From Phycisphaeraceae bacterium (GTDB lineage: Bacteria; Planctomycetota; Phycisphaerae; Phycisphaerales; UBA1924), in assembly GCA_021297895.1 (NCBI GenBank), contig JAJTHN010000023.1:1-33985 (forward strand): a stretch of 33,985 nucleotides of DNA, read 5' to 3'. Below the pieces are notes generated by a model. The model did no database searches. It was not told where the DNA came from and was given only the letters and a program-made list of their open reading frames with translations. Shown in pieces: positions 3,992 to 27,697 of this stretch. Positions within the stretch are counted from its first letter, which is position 1. Each line of letters starts with the position of its first letter. The position numbers and the translations under genes are program-made.

Positions 3992-4159
3992 TCGAGGGTG
4001 AGAGCGCTCGACCCGGGGCCCGGGCGGCGGGCGCGATGGATTTTCGGGCGTTGCCGCGGCTCCAAGCCCCCCGCAGATGGCGATGATCCGGTATGCTCCG
4101 GACCCGGTCCGCTCATCGGCCCCCACCGTCGGCCCCCACCGGCGGCCCCCGTCCCCGCT

Positions 4160-4201
4160 CCCGTTCCCGTTCCCGTTCCCGTTCCCGTTCCCGTTCCCGT
4201 T
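4160..4201 (+). repeat. Hexanucleotide microsatellite (CCCGTT)x7
   Basis: Seven uninterrupted CCCGTT units lie 51 bases upstream of the argF ATG, in an otherwise C-rich gap (3992-4251). The flanks (GTCCCCGCTC, CCCCCAGCCC) are of similar composition. Because the unit is 6 bases long, copy-number change would move promoter elements relative to the gene but would not shift a reading frame. I see no convincing promoter or terminator in the rest of this gap. Confidence 0.9.
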
Positions 4202-4251
4202 CCCCCAGCCCCCGCCCCCGCCCCCCACCCTTCACACCCGCCACACCGCCC

Positions 4252-5418
4252 ATGCCCAAGAAGACCTCTTCCAGCCGCCGTTCAACCGACGCCCCGGGGA
4301 CCAAGGCCCGCACCGCCAAGGCCCGCACGGACAAGCCTCGCACCGAGCAGCCTCGCACCCCCGCGGCCCGTCCCCCCGCGGCCCGCACCCCCGCGGCTCG
4401 CCCGGCCGCGAAGGCCGCCGGCGCATCGCGCGCTGGCGCCTCGGTTCCGGCCCTGACCCTGTCGCGTCCGGACTTTTTGGCGGTCGCGGCGCTCTCGATC
4501 GACGATGTGCACAACATCCTGCGCACCGCCGCGGCGATCAAGGCCGCACGCGGGGCGAACGTCGCCGATCGCCTGTCCGGCCGCGCGGTGGCGATGATCT
4601 TCGAGAAGGCCTCGCTGCGCACGCGCATGTCGTTCGAGGTCGGCATCGCCCGCATGGGCGGGCACCCGATCTTCTACGACCTTGGCGCCTCGGGCGACCG
4701 CATCGGCCTGCGCGAGAGCGTGCGGGACTTTGCCCGCAACATGGAACGCTTCGTCGACATGATCATCGCGCGGGTGTACTCGCAGGCGATCCTCGAGGAG
4801 GTCGCCGATGAGGCCCGCATCCCGGTGATCAACGCCCTGAGCGACGACCACCACCCCTGCCAGGGCCTGGCCGATGCGCTGACGATCACCGAGAAGTTCG
4901 GCACCATCCGCGGCACGCGGGTCTGCTACATCGGCGATGGCAACAACGTCTGCGTCTCGCTGCTGGAATCCTGCTGCAAACTCGGCGGCCACGTGACGAT
5001 CATCTGCCCGGAGGGATACACGCCGCCGGCCGAGCTCATCGCCCGCGCGCAGGCCGATGCGGACCTGACGGGCGGCTCGATCACCGTGACGGCCGATGCC
5101 CGAGCCGTCCGCGGCCAGCAGGTGGTGTACACCGACTGCTGGGTGAGCATGCACCACGCCGCGCCCGCGGGCCACGCCCCCGATGCCGGCGGCGGCGACC
5201 CGGCCAGCCGCGTGGCCGCGTTCGCGGCGTATCAGGTCAACGATGAGCTCATGGACCTGGCCGATACCCGAGCGATCTTCATGCACTGCCTCCCCGCCCA
5301 CCGCGGCGAAGAGGTCACCGACTCGGTGATCGACGGCCGCCAGAGCGCCGTCTACGACCAGGCCGAGAACCGCCGCTGGGCCCAAATGGCGGTGATGCTC
5401 GGCCTGCTCAAGGCGTGA
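4252..5418 (+). CDS. argF: Ornithine carbamoyltransferase with N-terminal basic tail
   Basis: Makes citrulline from ornithine and carbamoyl phosphate in arginine biosynthesis. The 388 residues include the carbamoyl-phosphate motif SLRTR (121-125; STRTR in many homologues), DDHHPCQGLADALT near 200, and HCLPAHRGEEVTDSVI near 345. The OTCase core starts around residue 68 (LTLSRPDFLAVAALS). Before it is a tail of about 65 residues rich in Lys, Arg, Ala, Pro and Thr with repeated KART, PRT and PAAR units, which most ArgF proteins lack. The ATG at 4252 is the only ATG in the frame close to the core apart from starts inside the microsatellite region. No Shine-Dalgarno is visible before it, so the start is less certain than the function. 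A start inside the tail cannot be excluded. Confidence 0.93.
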   Translation: MPKKTSSSRRSTDAPGTKARTAKARTDKPRTEQPRTPAARPPAARTPAARPAAKAAGASRAGASVPALTLSRPDFLAVAALSIDDVHNILRTAAAIKAARGANVADRLSGRAVAMIFEKASLRTRMSFEVGIARMGGHPIFYDLGASGDRIGLRESVRDFARNMERFVDMIIARVYSQAILEEVADEARIPVINALSDDHHPCQGLADALTITEKFGTIRGTRVCYIGDGNNVCVSLLESCCKLGGHVTIICPEGYTPPAELIARAQADADLTGGSITVTADARAVRGQQVVYTDCWVSMHHAAPAGHAPDAGGGDPASRVAAFAAYQVNDELMDLADTRAIFMHCLPAHRGEEVTDSVIDGRQSAVYDQAENRRWAQMAVMLGLLKA

Positions 5419-5436: not shown

Positions 5437-5465
5437 GGGGGTGGGGTGGGGTGGGGCGGGGTGGG
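5437..5465 (+). other. G-run with quadruplex potential after argF
   Basis: Five runs of four or more G separated by single bases (GGGGG-T-GGGG-T-GGGG-T-GGGG-C-GGGG-T-GGG) begin 19 bases after the argF stop, on the coding strand. Such a run can form a G-quadruplex in the transcript or the displaced strand. No ordinary stem-loop terminator with a T-tract follows argF, so this may mark the transcript end, but that is inference. Confidence 0.55.
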
Positions 5466-5469
5466 AGTG

Positions 5470-5556
5470 GCGCAGTGGCAGAGTGGCAGAGTGGCGCAGT
5501 GGCAAAGGGCACAGGGCAAAGGGGCAAAAGGGCAAAGGGCAAACCGGCAAAGCACC
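5470..5556 (+). repeat. Degenerate short tandem repeats (AGTGGC.. then GGCAAA..)
   Basis: Four copies of an 8-9 base AGTGGCAG/AGTGGCGC unit are followed by five or more copies of a 7-8 base GGGCAAA/GGGGCAAA unit. The stretch is purine-rich on the + strand. No plausible start site or recognisable protein is encoded. Confidence 0.7.
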
Positions 5557-5566
5557 AAATCCGAAA

Positions 5567-5621
5567 GCACCTCCCCCGTTTCCAAACGGGGGAGGTGCCG
5601 AGTCCTCGAGGCGGAGGGGGC
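5567..5621 (+). repeat. Dispersed palindromic element, copy 1
   Basis: A perfect 15-bp inverted repeat (arms 5567-5581 and 5584-5598, two-base loop) is followed by CGAGTCCTCGAGGCGGAGGGG. A related element in the opposite orientation is at 12041-12100. Aligned after reverse-complementing, the two share CCCCTCCGCC, a CGGCACCTCCCCC block and the hairpin core with GGGGGAGG. This is a REP- or MITE-like intergenic element; the family name is unknown to me. Confidence 0.7.
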
Positions 5622-5672
5622 GACTCTTCGACCCAAAGGGGGCCCCGCCCCCCCGCCCCCGGCCCCCTCCGA

Positions 5673-5705
5673 TTTGAACTTTTCCCCATTTGAACTTTGA
5701 ACTTT
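5673..5705 (+). repeat. TTTGAACTTT direct repeats
   Basis: TTTGAACTTT occurs at 5673-5682, 5689-5698 and 5696-5705, the last two overlapping by three bases. This forms a locally AT-rich patch in a G+C-rich gap. No gene is associated with it. Confidence 0.6.
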
Positions 5706-5754
5706 CGCGGCGCATCGCCGCGCGTTCCCCCCCGTTCCCCGCGCAATCCCCGCG

Positions 5755-5777
5755 CGATCGCGAACACGATCGCGAAC
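5755..5777 (+). repeat. CGATCGCGAAC direct repeat pair
   Basis: Two perfect 11-base copies of CGATCGCGAAC start 12 bases apart (5755 and 5767). It is a short intergenic repeat of unknown role. Confidence 0.5.
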
Positions 5778-5825
5778 GTTCGACCCCTGATCCGCCCAAA
5801 ATCGACACAAAACCGAACACCAGAC

Positions 5826-5849
5826 GACCAAAAATTCCCAATTTTGGTC
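5826..5849 (+). other. AT-rich hairpin beside the 21-bp array
   Basis: GACC/GGTC outer arms and AAAATT/AATTTT inner arms pair with one bulged A and a CCC loop, giving 10 paired bases. Its right arm runs directly into the first inverted unit of the 21-bp array at 5847. It is one of the most AT-rich spots in the neighbourhood. No T-tract follows, so it is not a typical terminator. Confidence 0.5.
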
Positions 5850-6075
5850 CACAAGTCCGCGCCGCGCGTCCACAAGACGCCGTCTTGTGGACGCGTGACG
5901 GCATTTTGTGGACGCGCGGCGCCGTCTTGTGGACGCGCGGCGGCATTTTGTGGACGCGTGGAGCCGTCCCGTGGACGCGTGACGGCATCTTGTGGACGCG
6001 CGGAGCCAATCCGTGGACGCGCGGCGTCGTCTTGTGGACGCGTGACGCCGACGTGTGGACGCGTGGCGGCGTGAT
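5847..6075 (+). repeat. 21-bp phased array of GTGGAC units (11 copies)
   Basis: Nine direct units begin with GTGGACGCG at 5887, 5908, 5929, 5950, 5971, 5992, 6013, 6034 and 6055, exactly 21 bases apart. The other 12 bases of each unit vary. Two inverted units (GTCCACAAG) precede them at 5847 and 5868, also 21 bases apart. Where the orientation flips, a perfect 15-bp inverted repeat surrounds a single central C (5867-5897). TGTGGAC is intact in nine of the eleven units. There are no unique spacers, so this is not a CRISPR. Both strands stay open across it only because 21 is a multiple of three. No start codon with a ribosome site leads into it. Confidence 0.9.
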
Positions 6076-6325
6076 GACGACCCCTGAGGCGACCCCCACG
6101 CCCCCTCCGCACCCCCATCGGCGGCACCAAGCCCCCACGTGTTCACCATCAGTTCGGCCCGCCGCGACCGCCCTCGTACTCCCCGCGGCCGCAGCACACA
6201 CACCCCCCGCCCCGCGCGGCCGAACGCCCGAGAACACCGCCCCCCCCCAGTCCGCGCGCGTCGCCCGCTCCCCCTCCTTTTTTGAGACCTGAGACTCGCG
6301 CTTCGCGCGTGAATTTCTACCGCCG
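6076..6325. other. Non-coding gap, nothing recognised
   Basis: C-rich sequence downstream of the HNH gene (which runs on the - strand) and after the 21-bp array. It contains short C runs and one small stem (CGCGC-TTC-GCGCG near 6297) without a T-tract on either side. I see no gene, promoter or convincing terminator. Confidence 0.5.
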
Positions 6326-7177
6326 TCACGCCACAAAGACCTTGCGCCTGTGATACTCCAGCATCTCCGCCGTGGGCGCGAAGCGCTCGGGCATCGTGAT
6401 CGGTGCCCCGGCGCGGCTCTCGAACATCTCCTTGTAGATCGGAGCGGGCACTTCGGCCTTTAGCCGCTTGGAGACCCGCAGCGAGAAGTCGCCCGCCAGC
6501 GTGATGAGCCCGCGATCAAGCGCCGCGTCGTGCAGCGCGTTGAGGCACAGTCCGTTGCGAGGATCGAGCCGCAGGGCCGGGTCGGCGGCCCATGGCACGA
6601 TGTGGCTGGCCCGCAGCATCGCGGCGCTGCTGATCCCCGTGATGCAACACCGCCCATCGTGCGCCGCCATCACCGCGGCACGGAAGAACGCCTGCCCTCG
6701 CCGCTGCGCCGCTTCGCGGAGAACCTCCGTCGGCCCGCTGGGCGCGGTGTGCCGCTCCGCCGCCTCCACGTGCTCCGATGCCCCCTCCGACCCCACGCCC
6801 GCCAACACTCCGACGTCCCCGCGCCCCTCTTCATCCTGCCTCCCAGTTGAGCCCTGCATCTGGAGTTCTGCGCCTTCCCACTCGGCCCGCGCCACCGCGT
6901 TGGCGGCCAGCACGTCCCATCGGCCGTAGAACTCCGCCCATACCTCCCGGTCCGCCGCCGACGTGTTCCCCATCCCGCCGACGCCGCGGCCGCGGAGTTC
7001 AGGGTCCAGACTCGCAAAGTTGACAAGCTTCAGCGCAACCGCCGACGGCGTCCGGCCGATCACACCCGCAACAGCCACCACTGCCGGATTCCGCGAATGC
7101 ATCTTGCCGAAAGGAATCTGGCAGTACAGCGCCAGCGTCCGCACAAGTTGGTCCCGGTTCCATGCGCGTCGTTCCAT
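6326..7177 (-). CDS. HNH endonuclease (HNH_2 type)
   Basis: 283-residue protein with a C-terminal HNH nuclease module. GRCCITG (176-181) is followed by RASHIVPW with H192, then NGLCLNALHDAALDRGLITL with N208 and H216. This is the pattern of the HNH_2 family often annotated as putative restriction endonuclease. The N-terminal 60 residues (YCQIPFGKMHSRNP, GRTPSAVALKLVNFASLDP) form a helical segment commonly attached to this nuclease type. The middle (about 100-155) is acidic, low in hydrophobics and probably flexible. It is the last of six - strand genes in the accessory block and starts 113 bases after the HD gene stop. No methyltransferase is next to it, so a classical restriction-modification pair is not supported. 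A DNA-cutting defence or element-maintenance role is inference. Confidence 0.85.
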   Translation of the reverse strand: MERRAWNRDQLVRTLALYCQIPFGKMHSRNPAVVAVAGVIGRTPSAVALKLVNFASLDPELRGRGVGGMGNTSAADREVWAEFYGRWDVLAANAVARAEWEGAELQMQGSTGRQDEEGRGDVGVLAGVGSEGASEHVEAAERHTAPSGPTEVLREAAQRRGQAFFRAAVMAAHDGRCCITGISSAAMLRASHIVPWAADPALRLDPRNGLCLNALHDAALDRGLITLAGDFSLRVSKRLKAEVPAPIYKEMFESRAGAPITMPERFAPTAEMLEYHRRKVFVA

Positions 7178-7290
7178 CGGGCAATGGTATCGCGGCGGGG
7201 AGGGAATGCGCAGAGCGCAAGTCGCAAGCCTCGAATCGACAACTCAAGGCACGGAACACGCGCCGACAAAGCACGTCCAGCCAAGCTCCC

Positions 7291-8622
7291 TCACGCCTTA
7301 CGCAGCCGGTCTCGGAGTTGAGTCGCTTCGGTTCGAATCTCCTTGGGAACGTAGTACATAACGCGATCCTCCGGTGGGGCAATGACCGACTTGAGTCGCG
7401 GCAAGTACTGGCCGATCGATACCGGCTTGCCGCCGTCAACCACGCGGATGGTGTTCACGGCCGACTGATTTTCGGGTTCCTTCTCTTCGCGGTACGGTTG
7501 TCGGTACTTCCCTTTGACCTTGTCGGCCAGACAGTACATCGCGGGCTGTTGAAACCCATTCGCTGTCAGCAACTTATGGAGTTCCGGCTCCCACTCGCCA
7601 AAGTCATCAACCTTGAGCGGATTGGGCGGTGGTGGCGGCTCGATCATCGCGAAGCCGTCACGATTCAAAAAACGACGAGCGCAGTCGGCAAGCCCGCGAT
7701 CAGAGTGCCCGGTCCAGCGCTGGATCTGCTCAAGCACGGTGAACTCTTCGATTCGAAGGTAGTCGGCCACCGCCAGAGAGCCCGGGGCCGCCATCGGCAC
7801 GCTCCAAAACCGCTGAAGAGCGGGATTTGCATCGATCTCGCCGCCCTCCTGGCGCACAACATCGGCCCTCGTCCACATCGCTTGGAGCAACGCTTCAAAT
7901 CCCCTCGTGGTCTTGTGAAGATAGACGTTCTGGTACATGTAGTAGCGAGCGAAGATGTACTCTTCGATTGCCAGTGCCGTCTTGGCTGGCCAGACCAGAT
8001 CGGTCTCACTTTCATCAAACTGCACGGTGGTCAGCAGCCGGTGCCAGTCAAAGTGACCGTACCCTGCGCCACTGAACAGGCTGTCGCGTCGCAGGTAATC
8101 CAGGCGGTCGACGTCCAACTGACTCGACATCAATGCCCGCTGCCACGGGGGGTGACTGGAATTCTCCGAATTGATTAGGTCCGCGACATGATCGGGGAGA
8201 TATGCCCCCTGATTCTTGAGAACTCTGTGCACACCCGTGGTCTCATCTCTGATGATGGCGATCGACCACTGTTCGTGGTTGATGCCCAGGCACGGTTCGA
8301 ACAGATGCGAAAACGGCCCATGCCCCACGTCGTGCAGGAGCGCCGTTGCCAGAAGCGCCTGGCGTGCGTTCTTGATCCGCTCCGCGTTACTAACACGTTC
8401 AAGGTGCCCGAGCATGAGGAGCATCAGGTGCGTAACACCGAGACTGTGAGCAAAGCGGGTGTGATCAGCGCCCGGATAGGTAAAGTTGCTCACGCCAAGC
8501 TGATGGATACGCCGCAGGCGCTGGATTTCCGGGCAGTTGATCAAGTCGATCAACCAGCCGTCGCGTTTGCGGTCGAACGCGATGTAGTTGTACAATGGGT
8601 CGCGGAAGACTTTGTCGGTCAT
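7291..8622 (-). CDS. HD-domain phosphohydrolase (YwfO/EF1143 dNTPase-like)
   Basis: 443 residues. The HD metal site reads HTRFAHSLG (H59), LLHDVGHGPFSH (H97, D98) and SQLDVDRLDYLRRD (D170). The opening FRDPLYNYI and the QRLRRIHQLG segment match the SAMHD1-like HD family that includes Bacillus YwfO and the Enterococcus dNTP triphosphohydrolase EF1143, so dNTP or nucleotide hydrolysis is the likely activity. GGGAGGG lies 4 bases before the ATG. The gene upstream (8719-9231) is YwgA-like, and from memory ywgA and ywfO are also neighbours in Bacillus, which supports a functional pair. Visible base composition is less GC-rich than in the flanking metabolic genes. The exact substrate cannot be read from sequence. 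Confidence 0.85.
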   Translation of the reverse strand: MTDKVFRDPLYNYIAFDRKRDGWLIDLINCPEIQRLRRIHQLGVSNFTYPGADHTRFAHSLGVTHLMLLMLGHLERVSNAERIKNARQALLATALLHDVGHGPFSHLFEPCLGINHEQWSIAIIRDETTGVHRVLKNQGAYLPDHVADLINSENSSHPPWQRALMSSQLDVDRLDYLRRDSLFSGAGYGHFDWHRLLTTVQFDESETDLVWPAKTALAIEEYIFARYYMYQNVYLHKTTRGFEALLQAMWTRADVVRQEGGEIDANPALQRFWSVPMAAPGSLAVADYLRIEEFTVLEQIQRWTGHSDRGLADCARRFLNRDGFAMIEPPPPPNPLKVDDFGEWEPELHKLLTANGFQQPAMYCLADKVKGKYRQPYREEKEPENQSAVNTIRVVDGGKPVSIGQYLPRLKSVIAPPEDRVMYYVPKEIRTEATQLRDRLRKA

Positions 8623-8718
8623 ACGCCCTCCCTCATCCGGCTAGTTCACATGCGCTCGCCTGATGGCTGAACACCGACTGGTGCGGCTCCTGTGCTCAGG
8701 TGCCGTCTCCGACGTCCG

Positions 8719-9231
8719 TCAGTTCCGGCGGTTACGCTGCAGCCGTTGGGCCAGCTCAAGGGCCCTTTGGCTCGCCTCGATGGTGCTCGACACCTTCTTA
8801 AAGGCGCACGCACGCTCAAGTGCCCGATCCCAGTCCTTCGTCTGGCGGTAGTAGAACAGCACCGTCGAACCGAGTTCGAGGTGCCACAGATCCTCATTGA
8901 TCAACTGCTTGCCCAACTCCTCAAATGCCGACAATGAGGGATCGGGCTCCTGTCGCAGGAAGTCCTCCGCCATGGACGAGAGCGTGTACCTGTACGGGCC
9001 GCTGCCGCCGACCGGGCCACAGACTTCTTCAGCCAATTCGGCCGAAACCAGTTCATCGCAAGCGTCCGCCACGTCCCGGGAGTATGGCCCGAAGTGGTGC
9101 AACGTGTACTGACAGTCAAGCGGGCAACCGGCCTCCTGAAGGAAAAAGACCACCTTCTGAAGGCGCTTGCGCCCGTGAAGACCACTCTCCCCGGCCCACG
9201 AAATCAGCGTCGCCAACTGGAGTCGATTCAT
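8719..9231 (-). CDS. YwgA-like protein, partner of the HD protein
   Basis: 170-residue soluble protein. The ATG at 9231 is chosen because GGGAGG lies 6 bases upstream; the frame extends further but without a better site. The N-terminal part (RLQKVVFFLQEAGCPL...YTLHHFGPYSRDVADACDEL) has the pattern of YwgA-family proteins. It also resembles, more loosely, the Panacea/SocA-like (DUF4065) domain that acts as an antitoxin in some systems. The C-terminal half is helical (AFEELGKQL to the Arg/Asn-rich end). The HD gene starts 96 bases downstream on the same strand. The function is not established. The pairing suggests a regulator or binding partner of the nucleotide hydrolase. Confidence 0.7.
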   Translation of the reverse strand: MNRLQLATLISWAGESGLHGRKRLQKVVFFLQEAGCPLDCQYTLHHFGPYSRDVADACDELVSAELAEEVCGPVGGSGPYRYTLSSMAEDFLRQEPDPSLSAFEELGKQLINEDLWHLELGSTVLFYYRQTKDWDRALERACAFKKVSSTIEASQRALELAQRLQRNRRN

Positions 9232-12131: not shown

Positions 12132-13316
12132 TTACACCCCTGCGCGCAGCACCGTGGCCCCGCCCCGTCCGCCCTCCACCCGACACCGCCCGCTGACTTC
12201 CGCCGGCACAAGCACCGTGCGCCCCGCCGGGAGCACCATCGCCGGGAACGATCCGTCATCGCTGCGCAGTTCCGCCGCGCCGGCGATGCACATGAGCACG
12301 ATGCAGGCATCGCCGGGGTCGCTGTGAACGGGCACGGATGCGCTTGCGCTCGGCCGGGACTCATCGAGCGTGAAGAAGCTCGTCGTGACCAAACGGCTCC
12401 AGCGACTCCCAGCCCCTCCACCACCCCCACCACCCCCACCGCTGGCCCCACCGCTGGCCCCACCGCTGGCCCCACTGCTGGCCCCGCTGCTGGCCCCGCT
12501 GCTGGCCCCGCTGCTGGCCGCGCTTGCGCCGCCGTGCCGCGTTGCCGCGGGCGCGGGGTGGAAGTCGATGCACGCCAGCGCCTGCTCGATGTGCAGCTCG
12601 CGGCCGGTTCGGCCCCAGTCGTACACGCGGAATGTCGTGTCGCTGGGTGTCTGCACCTCGGCCACCAGCACCCCCGCGCCCAGCGCGTGCACCGTGCCGC
12701 TGGGGAGGTTGTGGCACTCGCCCGCGACCGCCGGGACGCTCTCGAGCAGCTCGACAACGCCCCGGCCGTTTCCGCTGCGCAGGGCCGACTCGAACGCCGC
12801 ACGCGTCACGCCCGGTCGCACGCCCTTGTAGATCCGCGCCCCCGGCTCGGCGTGGAGGATGTACCAGCACTCGGTCTTCAGGTGCGCGCCGGGATGATGC
12901 CGCGCGTACTCCGGCGATGGGTGCACCTGCACGCTCAGGTCCTCGCGCGCATCGAGGTACTTGATCAGGAGCGGGAACTCACCGACGCCGCCGTGAGACA
13001 TGGGCCGCGATGAGCCCAGCAGCCGGTGCCCGTACGCGGCGATGGCTTCGCGGAGCGTGCGCCCGGCCATCGGCCCGGTCTCGATCACGCTGTGCGCTGC
13101 GCCGCCGCCCGCGCCGCTGGCGCTGGTGCTGGCCATGTCGGCCAGTTCCCACGATTCGCCGATGCGAGCGCCCGGAGCGACGCTCTTGCCGAAGCGCGAC
13201 AGGCGGTCGCCGCCCCAGACCTTCTCCATCAGCATGGGGCGGAAGGTCATCGGCGACAGCGGCGGCGCGCCGGTGGTGTGCGGGAGGCTTGCGCGATCGG
13301 TGCTCGGGGTGCTCAT
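12132..13316 (-). CDS. manA: Mannose-6-phosphate isomerase, class I
   Basis: Interconverts fructose-6-phosphate and mannose-6-phosphate, supplying GDP-mannose for glycans. With the ATG at 13316 (MSTPSTDRA) the protein is 394 residues. No clear ribosome site is visible, and upstream in-frame codons encode only Ala/Pro-rich sequence. PMI features: FRPMLMEKVWGG, GESWELAD, PLLIKYLDAREDLSVQVHPSPEYA (zinc ligands Q130, H132), KTECWYIL (E149), and the RVYDWGR...ELHIEQAL segment. A Ser/Gly/Ala linker of about 35 residues, encoded by a 12-bp tandem repeat, is inserted before the last beta domain. The gene stands first among glycan genes on this strand and fits a role in sugar supply for the glycosyltransferases upstream. 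Confidence 0.92.
   Translation of the reverse strand: MSTPSTDRASLPHTTGAPPLSPMTFRPMLMEKVWGGDRLSRFGKSVAPGARIGESWELADMASTSASGAGGGAAHSVIETGPMAGRTLREAIAAYGHRLLGSSRPMSHGGVGEFPLLIKYLDAREDLSVQVHPSPEYARHHPGAHLKTECWYILHAEPGARIYKGVRPGVTRAAFESALRSGNGRGVVELLESVPAVAGECHNLPSGTVHALGAGVLVAEVQTPSDTTFRVYDWGRTGRELHIEQALACIDFHPAPAATRHGGASAASSGASSGASSGASSGASGGASGGASGGGGGGGGGAGSRWSRLVTTSFFTLDESRPSASASVPVHSDPGDACIVLMCIAGAAELRSDDGSFPAMVLPAGRTVLVPAEVSGRCRVEGGRGGATVLRAGV
12441..12524 (-). repeat. 12-bp tandem repeat inside manA
   Basis: Seven units of GCTGGCCCC plus three variable bases encode, on the - strand, repeated Ser/Gly-Gly-Ala-Ser tetrapeptides. A run of CCACCCCCA-type triplets encoding poly-Gly adjoins it. 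The unit is a multiple of three, so copy-number changes alter linker length without breaking the gene. Confidence 0.9.
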
Positions 13317-25313: not shown

Positions 25314-27697
25314 GTGAGGTCTCCGGATGCGCGGACGCCGGGTGCGGGGGGTGAGGCGGGAGGTGCGGGCAGCATTGGGCGTGCCGGCGGTACGGGCGTG
25401 TCATCCAGTCGGATGAGCATCACGCCGAGATCGTCCCATCGTCGGACGACGTCGTTCAGGTCCGCGAGGTCCTTGATCACCAGGGCTGTGACGCGGGGGT
25501 CATACCAGCCCGAGCGTTGCAGCCTATCGATCTCGCCGGCATTGATGAGGATCCAGCGCACGCCGCGGGCTTGGAGCATCGGTCCCCAGGCCTCGGGCTG
25601 GTTGGGGCGCTCGCCGATGACCTCGCCCAGCGGCGAACGGTCCCACGTTGTGTGCCAGAGAATGTGACGCGGGGCGCGGGTGAAGTAGTACGGCCGACTC
25701 TCGCCCAGAAGGTACACGGTTTCATCCGGCGGCACGAAGATGTTGACGAACTCGAACGGCTGCAGGCCCGCGGCGAACTCATCGCGTTCGTCATCGGTCA
25801 TGCCGACCATGCGCGCACGGGCCGCTTCGCCCGACAGAAAGCCGCCGCCCAGCACGAGCATGCTGGCCGGTCGGCCCTTGCCCTCACGCATAAAGAGATT
25901 GAGTGTCCACGCGGACAACGCGGCGATCGCGGCGCTGAGGGCGATGATCGCCAGGCGCGCGGGCGAACCCATGCGTCCGGCCAGCAGCCGGTCCAACGCG
26001 GCGCTGGCACCCAGCCCGGCCAGAACCGCGCCCGGAACCAGCGCCGGGAGCAGGAACCGCGCCTGCGCGTGCGTGAAGAAGATCCACGCCACCAGCATGA
26101 GCCCGAGCGAGGCGAGCATCAGCAGCGTTGCGCGGCGGGCCGGGCAAATCAGAGCAAGCATGCCGGCCAGCAGTGAAAGCGGGAAGAACACGAGCCACTG
26201 CGGGTGAAAGAGCCCCCGGGGTGTGTTGGGCTCGCCGGGGGTCGCGGCGACCTCCCAAAGCAGGCGGAGCGCCTCTCGCGGACCGCCGGCGACGGAGTGG
26301 CCTGCCGCGAACCGCGCTGCCTGCTCGCTGGTCCAGTGGCCGGAGCCGAACAGCCCGGTCGCGAACGGGAAGATCGGGTTGCCCGTCGCCAGCGCGCAGC
26401 GGATGAGCACCGGCCCGAGCGCAAGCAGCGACGCGATCCCCGCGACGACCGCGACGGGGAGCCAGCGACGCATCGGAACCAGCACCGCACCCGCCAGCGC
26501 GATCGTCGGAACGCAGAAGAGCGCGGCGGTGGGCTTGCACGCGCAGGCCGCGCCGGTGAGGAGACCGGCGAGGATGGCCAGACGCACCGAGTGGCTTGTC
26601 GAGACCGGCGTTCGGAACTCCATCAGCAGCAGGAGCGTGCCGATGAACATGAGGTTCACCGCGTGTTCGTTGTACGCCAGCGACGCGGTGACGATGCTCC
26701 ACGGTGCCGCGAGATACGCGCTGGCCGCGAGCGAGGCCCCCATCGCCGCGACGCGCTGGGCGCGATAATCGCCCGCCGCGCTCGGCGGGAGGAGCACGCC
26801 CCAGACCAGCCGCGCGACCAGGCCCGCGGTCAGAATCGCCATCCCCGCGTGCAGAAACTGGCACGTGATGCCGCCGAGCCCCTCGCCGGCGACGAGCCCC
26901 ACGGGCAGGCCCTGCGCGTTGCTCAGTCCGCCCCCGAGCACCGCGGCGACGACCAGGAACAGCGACTGCACAAAGCCGCCCATAGGCAGGAACGAATAGA
27001 CATTGTTCAGTTCACCCGCCATCGGCCCCTGCTGCACCCACTGCTGAGGCAGCGCCAGGTGGTACGACATCGCATCGAACGCGCCGAATTCGCTCGACCA
27101 CAGTGCGCCCGGAGGGCTCGCCGACGCGACCATCAGCACCGCCAGCGCCGGCGCCGCGAGCAGCACTGGCCATCGCGCGCTGGGCAGCGGCGGCCGCGTC
27201 CGCACCGCTCGCACAGCACGAAGAAGAAGCCCCAGCGCGCCGACGCTCAGCAGCGCGAGGGCGACGATCTGGCCCTTCGGGCCGGAGAGCAGGCCGAACT
27301 GGCCGAGGACGTGCGCACAGAGCATGAGCAGCGCGGGGCCGAGGGCCACATCGAGCCAGCCCGGCAGGATGCGTTGACGATCGATCAGTTCGCGCAGCAA
27401 TCCGCTGAGCCCGAAAGACGCCAGCAGAATCGCGCCGGCCAAGCCGCCGGCGGAGAGGAGTTTCTCGATCAGGGCGATCGGACCCAGAATCCAGGTGGGC
27501 GCGGAGTGCCCGCCGATCGCGGTCATGACGATTGCGAGAATGAAACTGAGAGTCAGTGTCGCGATTGTCCACATGTGGCGACGCGCGCGTACCCCTAAAG
27601 GCGGGAGATCAGGAGGGCGATGTCCCTGAGTAGGCACCGCGTTCACTTGCCCGGATTGCGGTAAACTGGAGAATGTCACTGGGTTCTCCTGATTCAT
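25310..27697 (-). CDS. Polytopic GT-C-like glycosyltransferase/membrane protein
   Basis: 795 residues from the ATG at 27697; an in-frame ATG at 27574 (MWTIATLTLSFILAIVM) is a reasonable alternative. Neither has a clear ribosome site. About twelve hydrophobic helices fill residues 45-570, then a soluble C-terminal domain follows (about 590-795). The first large loop carries SEFGAFDAMSYHLALPQQW, with the acidic residues typical of the first extracytoplasmic loop of GT-C (PMT/ArnT-like) enzymes. The donor would be a polyprenyl-phosphate sugar. The C-terminal tail is Pro/Ala-rich. It overlaps the downstream flippase-like gene by four bases. The annotation as a GT-C enzyme is a fold-level inference. 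Confidence 0.75.
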   Translation of the reverse strand: MNQENPVTFSSLPQSGQVNAVPTQGHRPPDLPPLGVRARRHMWTIATLTLSFILAIVMTAIGGHSAPTWILGPIALIEKLLSAGGLAGAILLASFGLSGLLRELIDRQRILPGWLDVALGPALLMLCAHVLGQFGLLSGPKGQIVALALLSVGALGLLLRAVRAVRTRPPLPSARWPVLLAAPALAVLMVASASPPGALWSSEFGAFDAMSYHLALPQQWVQQGPMAGELNNVYSFLPMGGFVQSLFLVVAAVLGGGLSNAQGLPVGLVAGEGLGGITCQFLHAGMAILTAGLVARLVWGVLLPPSAAGDYRAQRVAAMGASLAASAYLAAPWSIVTASLAYNEHAVNLMFIGTLLLLMEFRTPVSTSHSVRLAILAGLLTGAACACKPTAALFCVPTIALAGAVLVPMRRWLPVAVVAGIASLLALGPVLIRCALATGNPIFPFATGLFGSGHWTSEQAARFAAGHSVAGGPREALRLLWEVAATPGEPNTPRGLFHPQWLVFFPLSLLAGMLALICPARRATLLMLASLGLMLVAWIFFTHAQARFLLPALVPGAVLAGLGASAALDRLLAGRMGSPARLAIIALSAAIAALSAWTLNLFMREGKGRPASMLVLGGGFLSGEAARARMVGMTDDERDEFAAGLQPFEFVNIFVPPDETVYLLGESRPYYFTRAPRHILWHTTWDRSPLGEVIGERPNQPEAWGPMLQARGVRWILINAGEIDRLQRSGWYDPRVTALVIKDLADLNDVVRRWDDLGVMLIRLDDTPVPPARPMLPAPPASPPAPGVRASGDLT

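Follow-up and report, generated by a model that had tools for sequence, protein, structure and literature searches.

An intergenic array of 21-bp units and its sequence-divergent counterparts in a Phycisphaeraceae genome

The window, meaning the whole 33,985-nucleotide stretch analysed here (contig C38), carries an array of 21-bp units between two convergent genes, one resembling an ornithine carbamoyltransferase (argF-like) and the other, below threshold, a restriction endonuclease that binds phosphorothioated DNA. A GC-rich hairpin and an AT-rich hairpin accompany the array, and both of its flanks recur elsewhere in the same genome. The features are as follows, with a strand where one applies.

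4093-5418, plus strand: argF-like open reading frame (352 bits from residue 126 on)
5567-5620: dispersed GC-rich hairpin element, found as a self-complementary match, arms within 5567-5598, with a GAGTCCTCGAG tail and copies elsewhere in the genome
5720-5832: conserved left flank (98% identity over 113 bp at contig C30; 89% over a 143-bp match at contig C46 that reaches into the array edge)
5826-5849: AT-rich hairpin, GACCAAAA...TTTTGGTC, right arm overlapping the first unit; dyads at 5837.5 and 5838; 8-bp stem in the predicted fold
5847-5873, minus strand: two inverted units, GTCCAC at 5847 and 5868, 21 bp apart
5865-5895: perfect 15-bp inverted repeat at the orientation switch, arms 5865-5879 and 5881-5895, centre 5880, dyad 10/10
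5887-6075, plus strand: nine direct 21-bp units (GTGGAC), from core positions, the phased-pair count and TRF
6074-6163: right flank, common to contig C73 (84% over 107 bp, 6064-6170) and, more weakly, C30 (74% over 90 bp)
6326-7144, minus strand: phosphorothioated-DNA-binding restriction endonuclease-like gene (sub-threshold, 47.5 bits against a cut-off of 180)

The direct cores start at 5887, 5908, 5929, 5950, 5971, 5992, 6013, 6034 and 6055, a constant step of 21 bp, while only 19 bp separate 5868 from 5887, where the orientation changes. The sequence-only reading had described eleven copies in exact 21-bp phase; that description holds within the nine direct and within the two inverted units and breaks between the two sets. 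Its count of nine intact TGTGGAC/GTCCACA cores among the eleven units (seven direct and both inverted) is confirmed by the core positions. The perfect inverted repeat at the switch is there, and the AT-rich hairpin that it placed against the array is present but runs into the first unit. The dyads of the inverted repeat and of this hairpin lie about 42 bp apart. Paired GTGGACGCG cores at 21-bp spacing match eight times in the window and not once in 100 shuffles, and TRF reports periods of 21, 42 and 84 (scores 191, 237 and 270).

Two further features of the window lie apart from the array. Positions 6326-9231 are low in GC (0.58-0.60 over 7-10 kb) and give weak matches, all below threshold, to an anti-phage dGTPase, a DarG antitoxin and a restriction endonuclease for phosphorothioated DNA; the stretch may perhaps represent a defence island. 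At 12434-12519, a 12-bp tandem repeat (7.2 copies, 97%) sits within a predicted gene matching mannose-6-phosphate isomerase.

The window unit also occurs on contigs C46 and C73, giving 18 phased pairs over the three contigs (8, 4 and 6) against none for a reversed-pattern control; relative to the left flank, the C46 units are oriented opposite to those of the window. At a fourth place, on C30, window-type left and right flanks enclose an unrelated 21-bp unit, GCGCTCTGGAGAGCGCAGAGG-like and without GTGGAC. From anchor to anchor the array measures 276 bp in the window and 255 bp at C30, a difference of exactly one unit, although such congruence taken alone has a chance of 1 in 21. Other copies fall into groups with common flanks. 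In group ii (L074, L075, L076) the lengths between anchors are 210, 189 and 210 bp. Group iii (L078, L096, L084, L090, L126) has a common 125-bp left flank ending in TTCACCCATCTGAGC, behind which L078 and L096 share one array type and the remaining members another. To the far anchor, four members of group iii measure 495, 495, 629 and 548, which are incongruent modulo 21; since the right flank is rich in gaps, these lengths are not decisive. The ten non-independent pairs of group iii flanks differ by 251 substitutions and 8 gap events. L088, L094 and L092 form group iv, and L088/L094, L078/L096, L090/L128 and L075/L076 are near-copy pairs of arrays.

The window array is one of many 21-bp arrays in its own genome, beyond the view of a single-window reading. 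A query of 5440-5800 gives 67 matches in this genome, and the hairpin pattern, allowing up to 3 mismatches, gives 58 copies; the pattern is present in 6 of 101 genomes. By eye, the G/C at a single position of the inner stem and the C/G facing it seem to swap jointly between hairpin copies (GTGGCGAG..CTTCGAGCC versus GTGCCGAG..CTTCGAGGC), which suggests that the structure is kept. A period of 21, 42 or 63 bp appears at 20 of 30 loci fetched around hairpin copies; two pairs of these overlap, leaving 18 separate places, whose units are mostly unlike one another. Arrays on C73, C33 (with no hairpin on its 20-kb stretch), C45, C40 and C25 bring the total to 23 places, 10 of them less than 600 bp from a contig end. 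Because C45/C40 and C25/C44 (identical over the stretch seen) may each be one array split by assembly, about 20 separate arrays is the safer figure; as most were found through the hairpin and self-matches at 21, 42 or 63 bp, these counts are lower bounds that favour in-phase arrays. Periods from 10 to 129 were also scanned in a 400-kb sample (C71:1-180,000, C33:1-160,000 and C83:1-60,000). Ten array groups fall outside those predicted genes that score over 40, six of the groups with a base period of 21 or 42, one of these being weak (L140:321-457); the other four have periods of 16, 16, 10 and 126, the 126-bp group lying at hairpin copies. One extra 21-bp group lies inside a gene. A hairpin arm is found within 200 bp of five of the six 21/42-bp groups, compared with 5% of random positions for a distance of 700 bp. 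Aligning 19 arrays yields a loose consensus (score 65.3 versus a null of 41.7, s.d. 2.2), so the copies are partly related by descent and hence not independent.

This wider distribution bears on the suggestion that the window array is a site for DnaA titration, an iteron or a partition site, which the regular 21-bp spacing and a 7-of-9 match of GCGTCCACA to TTGTCCACA had prompted. The arithmetic of that match is correct. However, the window lacks TTATCCACA on both strands and has its sole TTGTCCACA at 27565, outside the array, which thus contains no canonical DnaA box; a cluster of DnaA boxes or a datA-like locus was rejected for want of near-consensus boxes. A GC-skew check proposed with the suggestion shows no switch around the array. 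The neighbours are argF-like and restriction-endonuclease-like, and among 10 window proteins scanned (the gene finder predicts 28) there is no initiator and no parA or parB. An iteron-type origin was set aside on that count and because the arrays lie at 23 places, not in one cluster, and the unit sequence differs across copies. The C30 array has the same flanks without GTGGAC, a sister locus showing that one array read alone, as in the DnaA-like interpretation, can mislead. The suggestion is thus left unsupported, and we regard it as highly improbable. The occurrence of the same array at many unrelated loci, which the sequence-only reading took as the mark of a simple mobile repeat, is seen in part: the identical unit is present at three places, and many places show the architecture built from different units. 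CRISPR was also considered and dismissed, the units running head to tail without spacers.

What the arrays have in common is the 21-bp period. Neighbouring units of the same type differ at 966 of 4305 positions (22%), yet no unit compared over those positions aligned better at an off-phase shift of 1 to 5 bp; the analysis omitted the near-copy L094 and counted only alignments with at least 10 matches. That no such shift turned up, and that arrays unrelated in sequence have the phase in common, supports the earlier proposal that the two-turn phase matters. Tested against permuted columns, dyad symmetry at a fixed phase is in excess in 16 of 23 arrays; those that fail are the arrays of the window (C38), C73, C46, L077, L084, L091 and G023b. 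An initial form of this test had given 10 of 19. Pairing within units exceeds pairing between units at p<0.05 in 7 of 25 arrays and fails at that level in 18, with a combined p of 5e-8 in which homologous copies are counted apart; the signal comes mainly from arrays that alternate several palindrome types. The window array shows neither significant dyads (p=0.42) nor an excess of within-unit pairing (p=0.88). In L090, intervals of 42, 63 or 84 bp separate the strongest palindromes, and the units lying between them are not palindromic. The A/T positions tend towards a spacing of 2.625 bp, the 8th harmonic of 21, which ranks top in 17 of 24 own-genome arrays and 12 of 19 group representatives and is present in the window array (p=0.0035), having been picked out after inspection of 10 harmonics in 3 alphabets. 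It is top in none of three held-out arrays from another genus and perhaps reflects shared ancestry. The dyad test in the same three arrays gives p values of 0.010, 0.000 and 0.022, a result biased by their having been found as matches of a dyad-based pattern; the G010 array fails it (p=0.31). Since the arrays of this genome share a 21-bp repeat and mostly differ in sequence, it seems that the spacing, and often the mirror symmetry, is conserved across them, rather than the target word of one protein.

A period of 21 bp is also seven codons, and heptapeptide repeats would account for it. At least one of six frames is open in all 23 arrays, as expected at the given GC, and predicted open reading frames overlap L088 (score 37.9), L080/L135 (32.4) and, at one edge, L084/L136; in G023, most of the L157 array falls inside a predicted gene scoring 144. 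However, the differences among units follow no codon phase (combined p=0.93 over 25 arrays, G010a being the one exception at p=0.014), the variable sites of the left flank in group iii are split 7/6/7 among the codon positions, and the 3-bp A/T harmonic in the arrays does not rise above the adjacent harmonics while being strong (10.2-10.5) in ordinary tiles taken from the window and the sample. A 93-bp comparison in family i yields 6 variable sites (4/1/1 by codon position), a number too small for a verdict. Coding heptads such as the LTPEELR-like repeat in L088, attractive by eye, were rejected on the codon-phase tests, and translation of the arrays appears very unlikely. As far as tested, the array elements are mostly non-coding and intergenic. 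A transcribed chain of hairpins acting as RNA would fit the strong predicted folds and the within-unit pairing; against it, stem G-T and A-C mismatches are about equal when summed over arrays, with no overall strand bias (strands not being oriented by transcription), and no Rfam family reaches threshold in the window. The neighbouring genes stand in every orientation, being convergent, tandem or divergent across loci, which weighs against the RNA reading, an improbable one on balance, and means that no single role as part of a terminator or promoter fits.

Beyond this genome the arrays are patchy. The window element is absent from all 100 relatives searched, none of the same genus; five have only 22-36-bp matches to it, at loci where a self-comparison in 63-bp windows shows no repeat. 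Period scans covered 51-200 kb in each of ten other genomes of the family and 53-71 kb in each of five from other families of the order. They find two 21-bp arrays in 200 kb of G023, one counted inside a predicted gene, and one in 100 kb of G010, whose flanks are themselves short dispersed repeats; the scanned stretches of G002, G015, G012, G006, G013, G017, G022, G024 and G061-G065 contain none. A phased-palindrome pattern matches in 4 of 163 family genomes (G000 at 24 places, G023 at 2, G146 and G048 at 1 each), and its reversed control once each in two other genomes. The matches in G023 and G146 lie in long arrays of 21-bp units and that in G048 in a short one; a further G023 array can be aligned to the first in either orientation, as expected of dyad arrays. 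The 21-bp arrays are thus richest in the window's own genome and occur in at least two other genera of the family, most sampled genomes being without them. A GTDB scan for three phased GTGGACGCG cores returned 23 stretches in other bacteria, which, judging from their repeat units, appear unrelated to the window array and probably coding.

Some observations were made alongside these scans. By eye, a terminator-like hairpin with a T run lies close behind the palindromic 21-bp array at L157:9402-9714 (G023). L159:11312-11526, L156:274-462 and L143:14567-14819 hold coding tandem repeats of 81 or 117 bp that look dockerin-like by eye (DGDG...FDFL), the 81-bp form being common in G023 and the 117-bp form in the window's genome.

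The explanation that we favour, tentatively and at somewhat less than an even chance, is a dispersed intergenic element in which the core varies by complete 21-bp units while phase and dyads are kept for repeated protein binding. Such an element would consist of a core of 21-bp units between flanks common to groups of copies, usually near the dispersed GC-rich hairpin. The core would gain, lose and homogenise whole units, so that its sequence would turn over much faster than the flanks, while the unit length of two helical turns would be retained, as would a dyad every 21 bp in most copies, though not in the window's. We infer that phase and dyads may be kept because a putative DNA-binding protein with little sequence specificity, acting as a dimer or oligomer (a nucleoid or topology protein, for instance), occupies the same face of the helix at successive units. 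Each element is then probably a multi-site binding platform between genes. Counter to this, the window array fails the dyad and pairing tests and breaks phase at its switch.

A selfish minisatellite, in which hairpin-forming 21-nt units expand and homogenise by strand slippage or recombination with no need of a binder, is a serious contender; this mutational, hairpin-driven account is nearly as likely as the protein platform. Array lengths change by whole units, and units are replaced between equal flanks. Single-strand folds are predicted to be strong in all four arrays folded (z of -6.0, -9.7, -11.0 and -6.6), as would be expected under the platform and the mutational account alike. The minisatellite account leaves a single fixed period of 21 across unrelated units unexplained, minisatellites in the order-level genome G061 having periods of 29, 31, 47, 64 and 85, and it sits poorly with L090, where strong palindromes come at intervals of 42, 63 or 84 bp and the intervening units are not palindromic.

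A broader claim would be that these arrays form a class in which geometry, not sequence, is inherited: two-turn, mostly dyad-symmetric arrays whose units are replaceable between fixed flanks. We consider this less likely than not; if correct, it implies a protein, or a process acting on DNA, that responds to symmetry and helical phase. Repeats are usually recognised by sequence, and a family that keeps its period, and often its dyads, while its sequence is replaced would escape homology searches and would point to a constraint on DNA architecture. No description of such a 21-bp array family was found in the literature searched, subscription journals lying mostly outside its scope.

Several known systems offer partial parallels. 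Minisatellites and VNTRs are tandem units that change length by whole units and turn over rapidly; the arrays here are likewise tandem, step by whole units and turn over fast, but they keep one period across unrelated sequences and have dyads in most copies. Iterons and DnaA-box clusters are tandem sites about two helical turns apart, as are the units here, whereas the present copies have no core word in common and occupy many chromosomal loci, and the scanned window genes include no replication gene. MITE-like non-autonomous elements are multi-copy with shared flanks, as are these arrays, which differ in having a replaceable core.

REP elements and BIMEs come close. In the genome studied here, Y1_Tnp matches a single gene over its full length (86.3 bits) and gives one further, partial match (25 bits). 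The full-length Y1 transposase-like gene, at L138:3627-4127 (C71, about 143.6-144.1 kb), appears RAYT-like by eye, and the nearby palindromes CCACGGGT/ACCCGTGG, also by eye, look unlike the arrays, a point against mobilisation of the arrays by a RAYT. The arrays depart from the REP/BIME class in that no recognisable REP sequence recurs and the units differ by locus with a loose consensus only. REP/BIME elements are intergenic, palindromic, multi-copy and arrayed, BIMEs being made of recognisable REP sequences in alternating orientation (PMC2817692). The arrays described here are likewise intergenic, palindromic, multi-copy and arrayed, and differ in that the sequence of the palindrome varies by locus while the period stays fixed at 21 bp.
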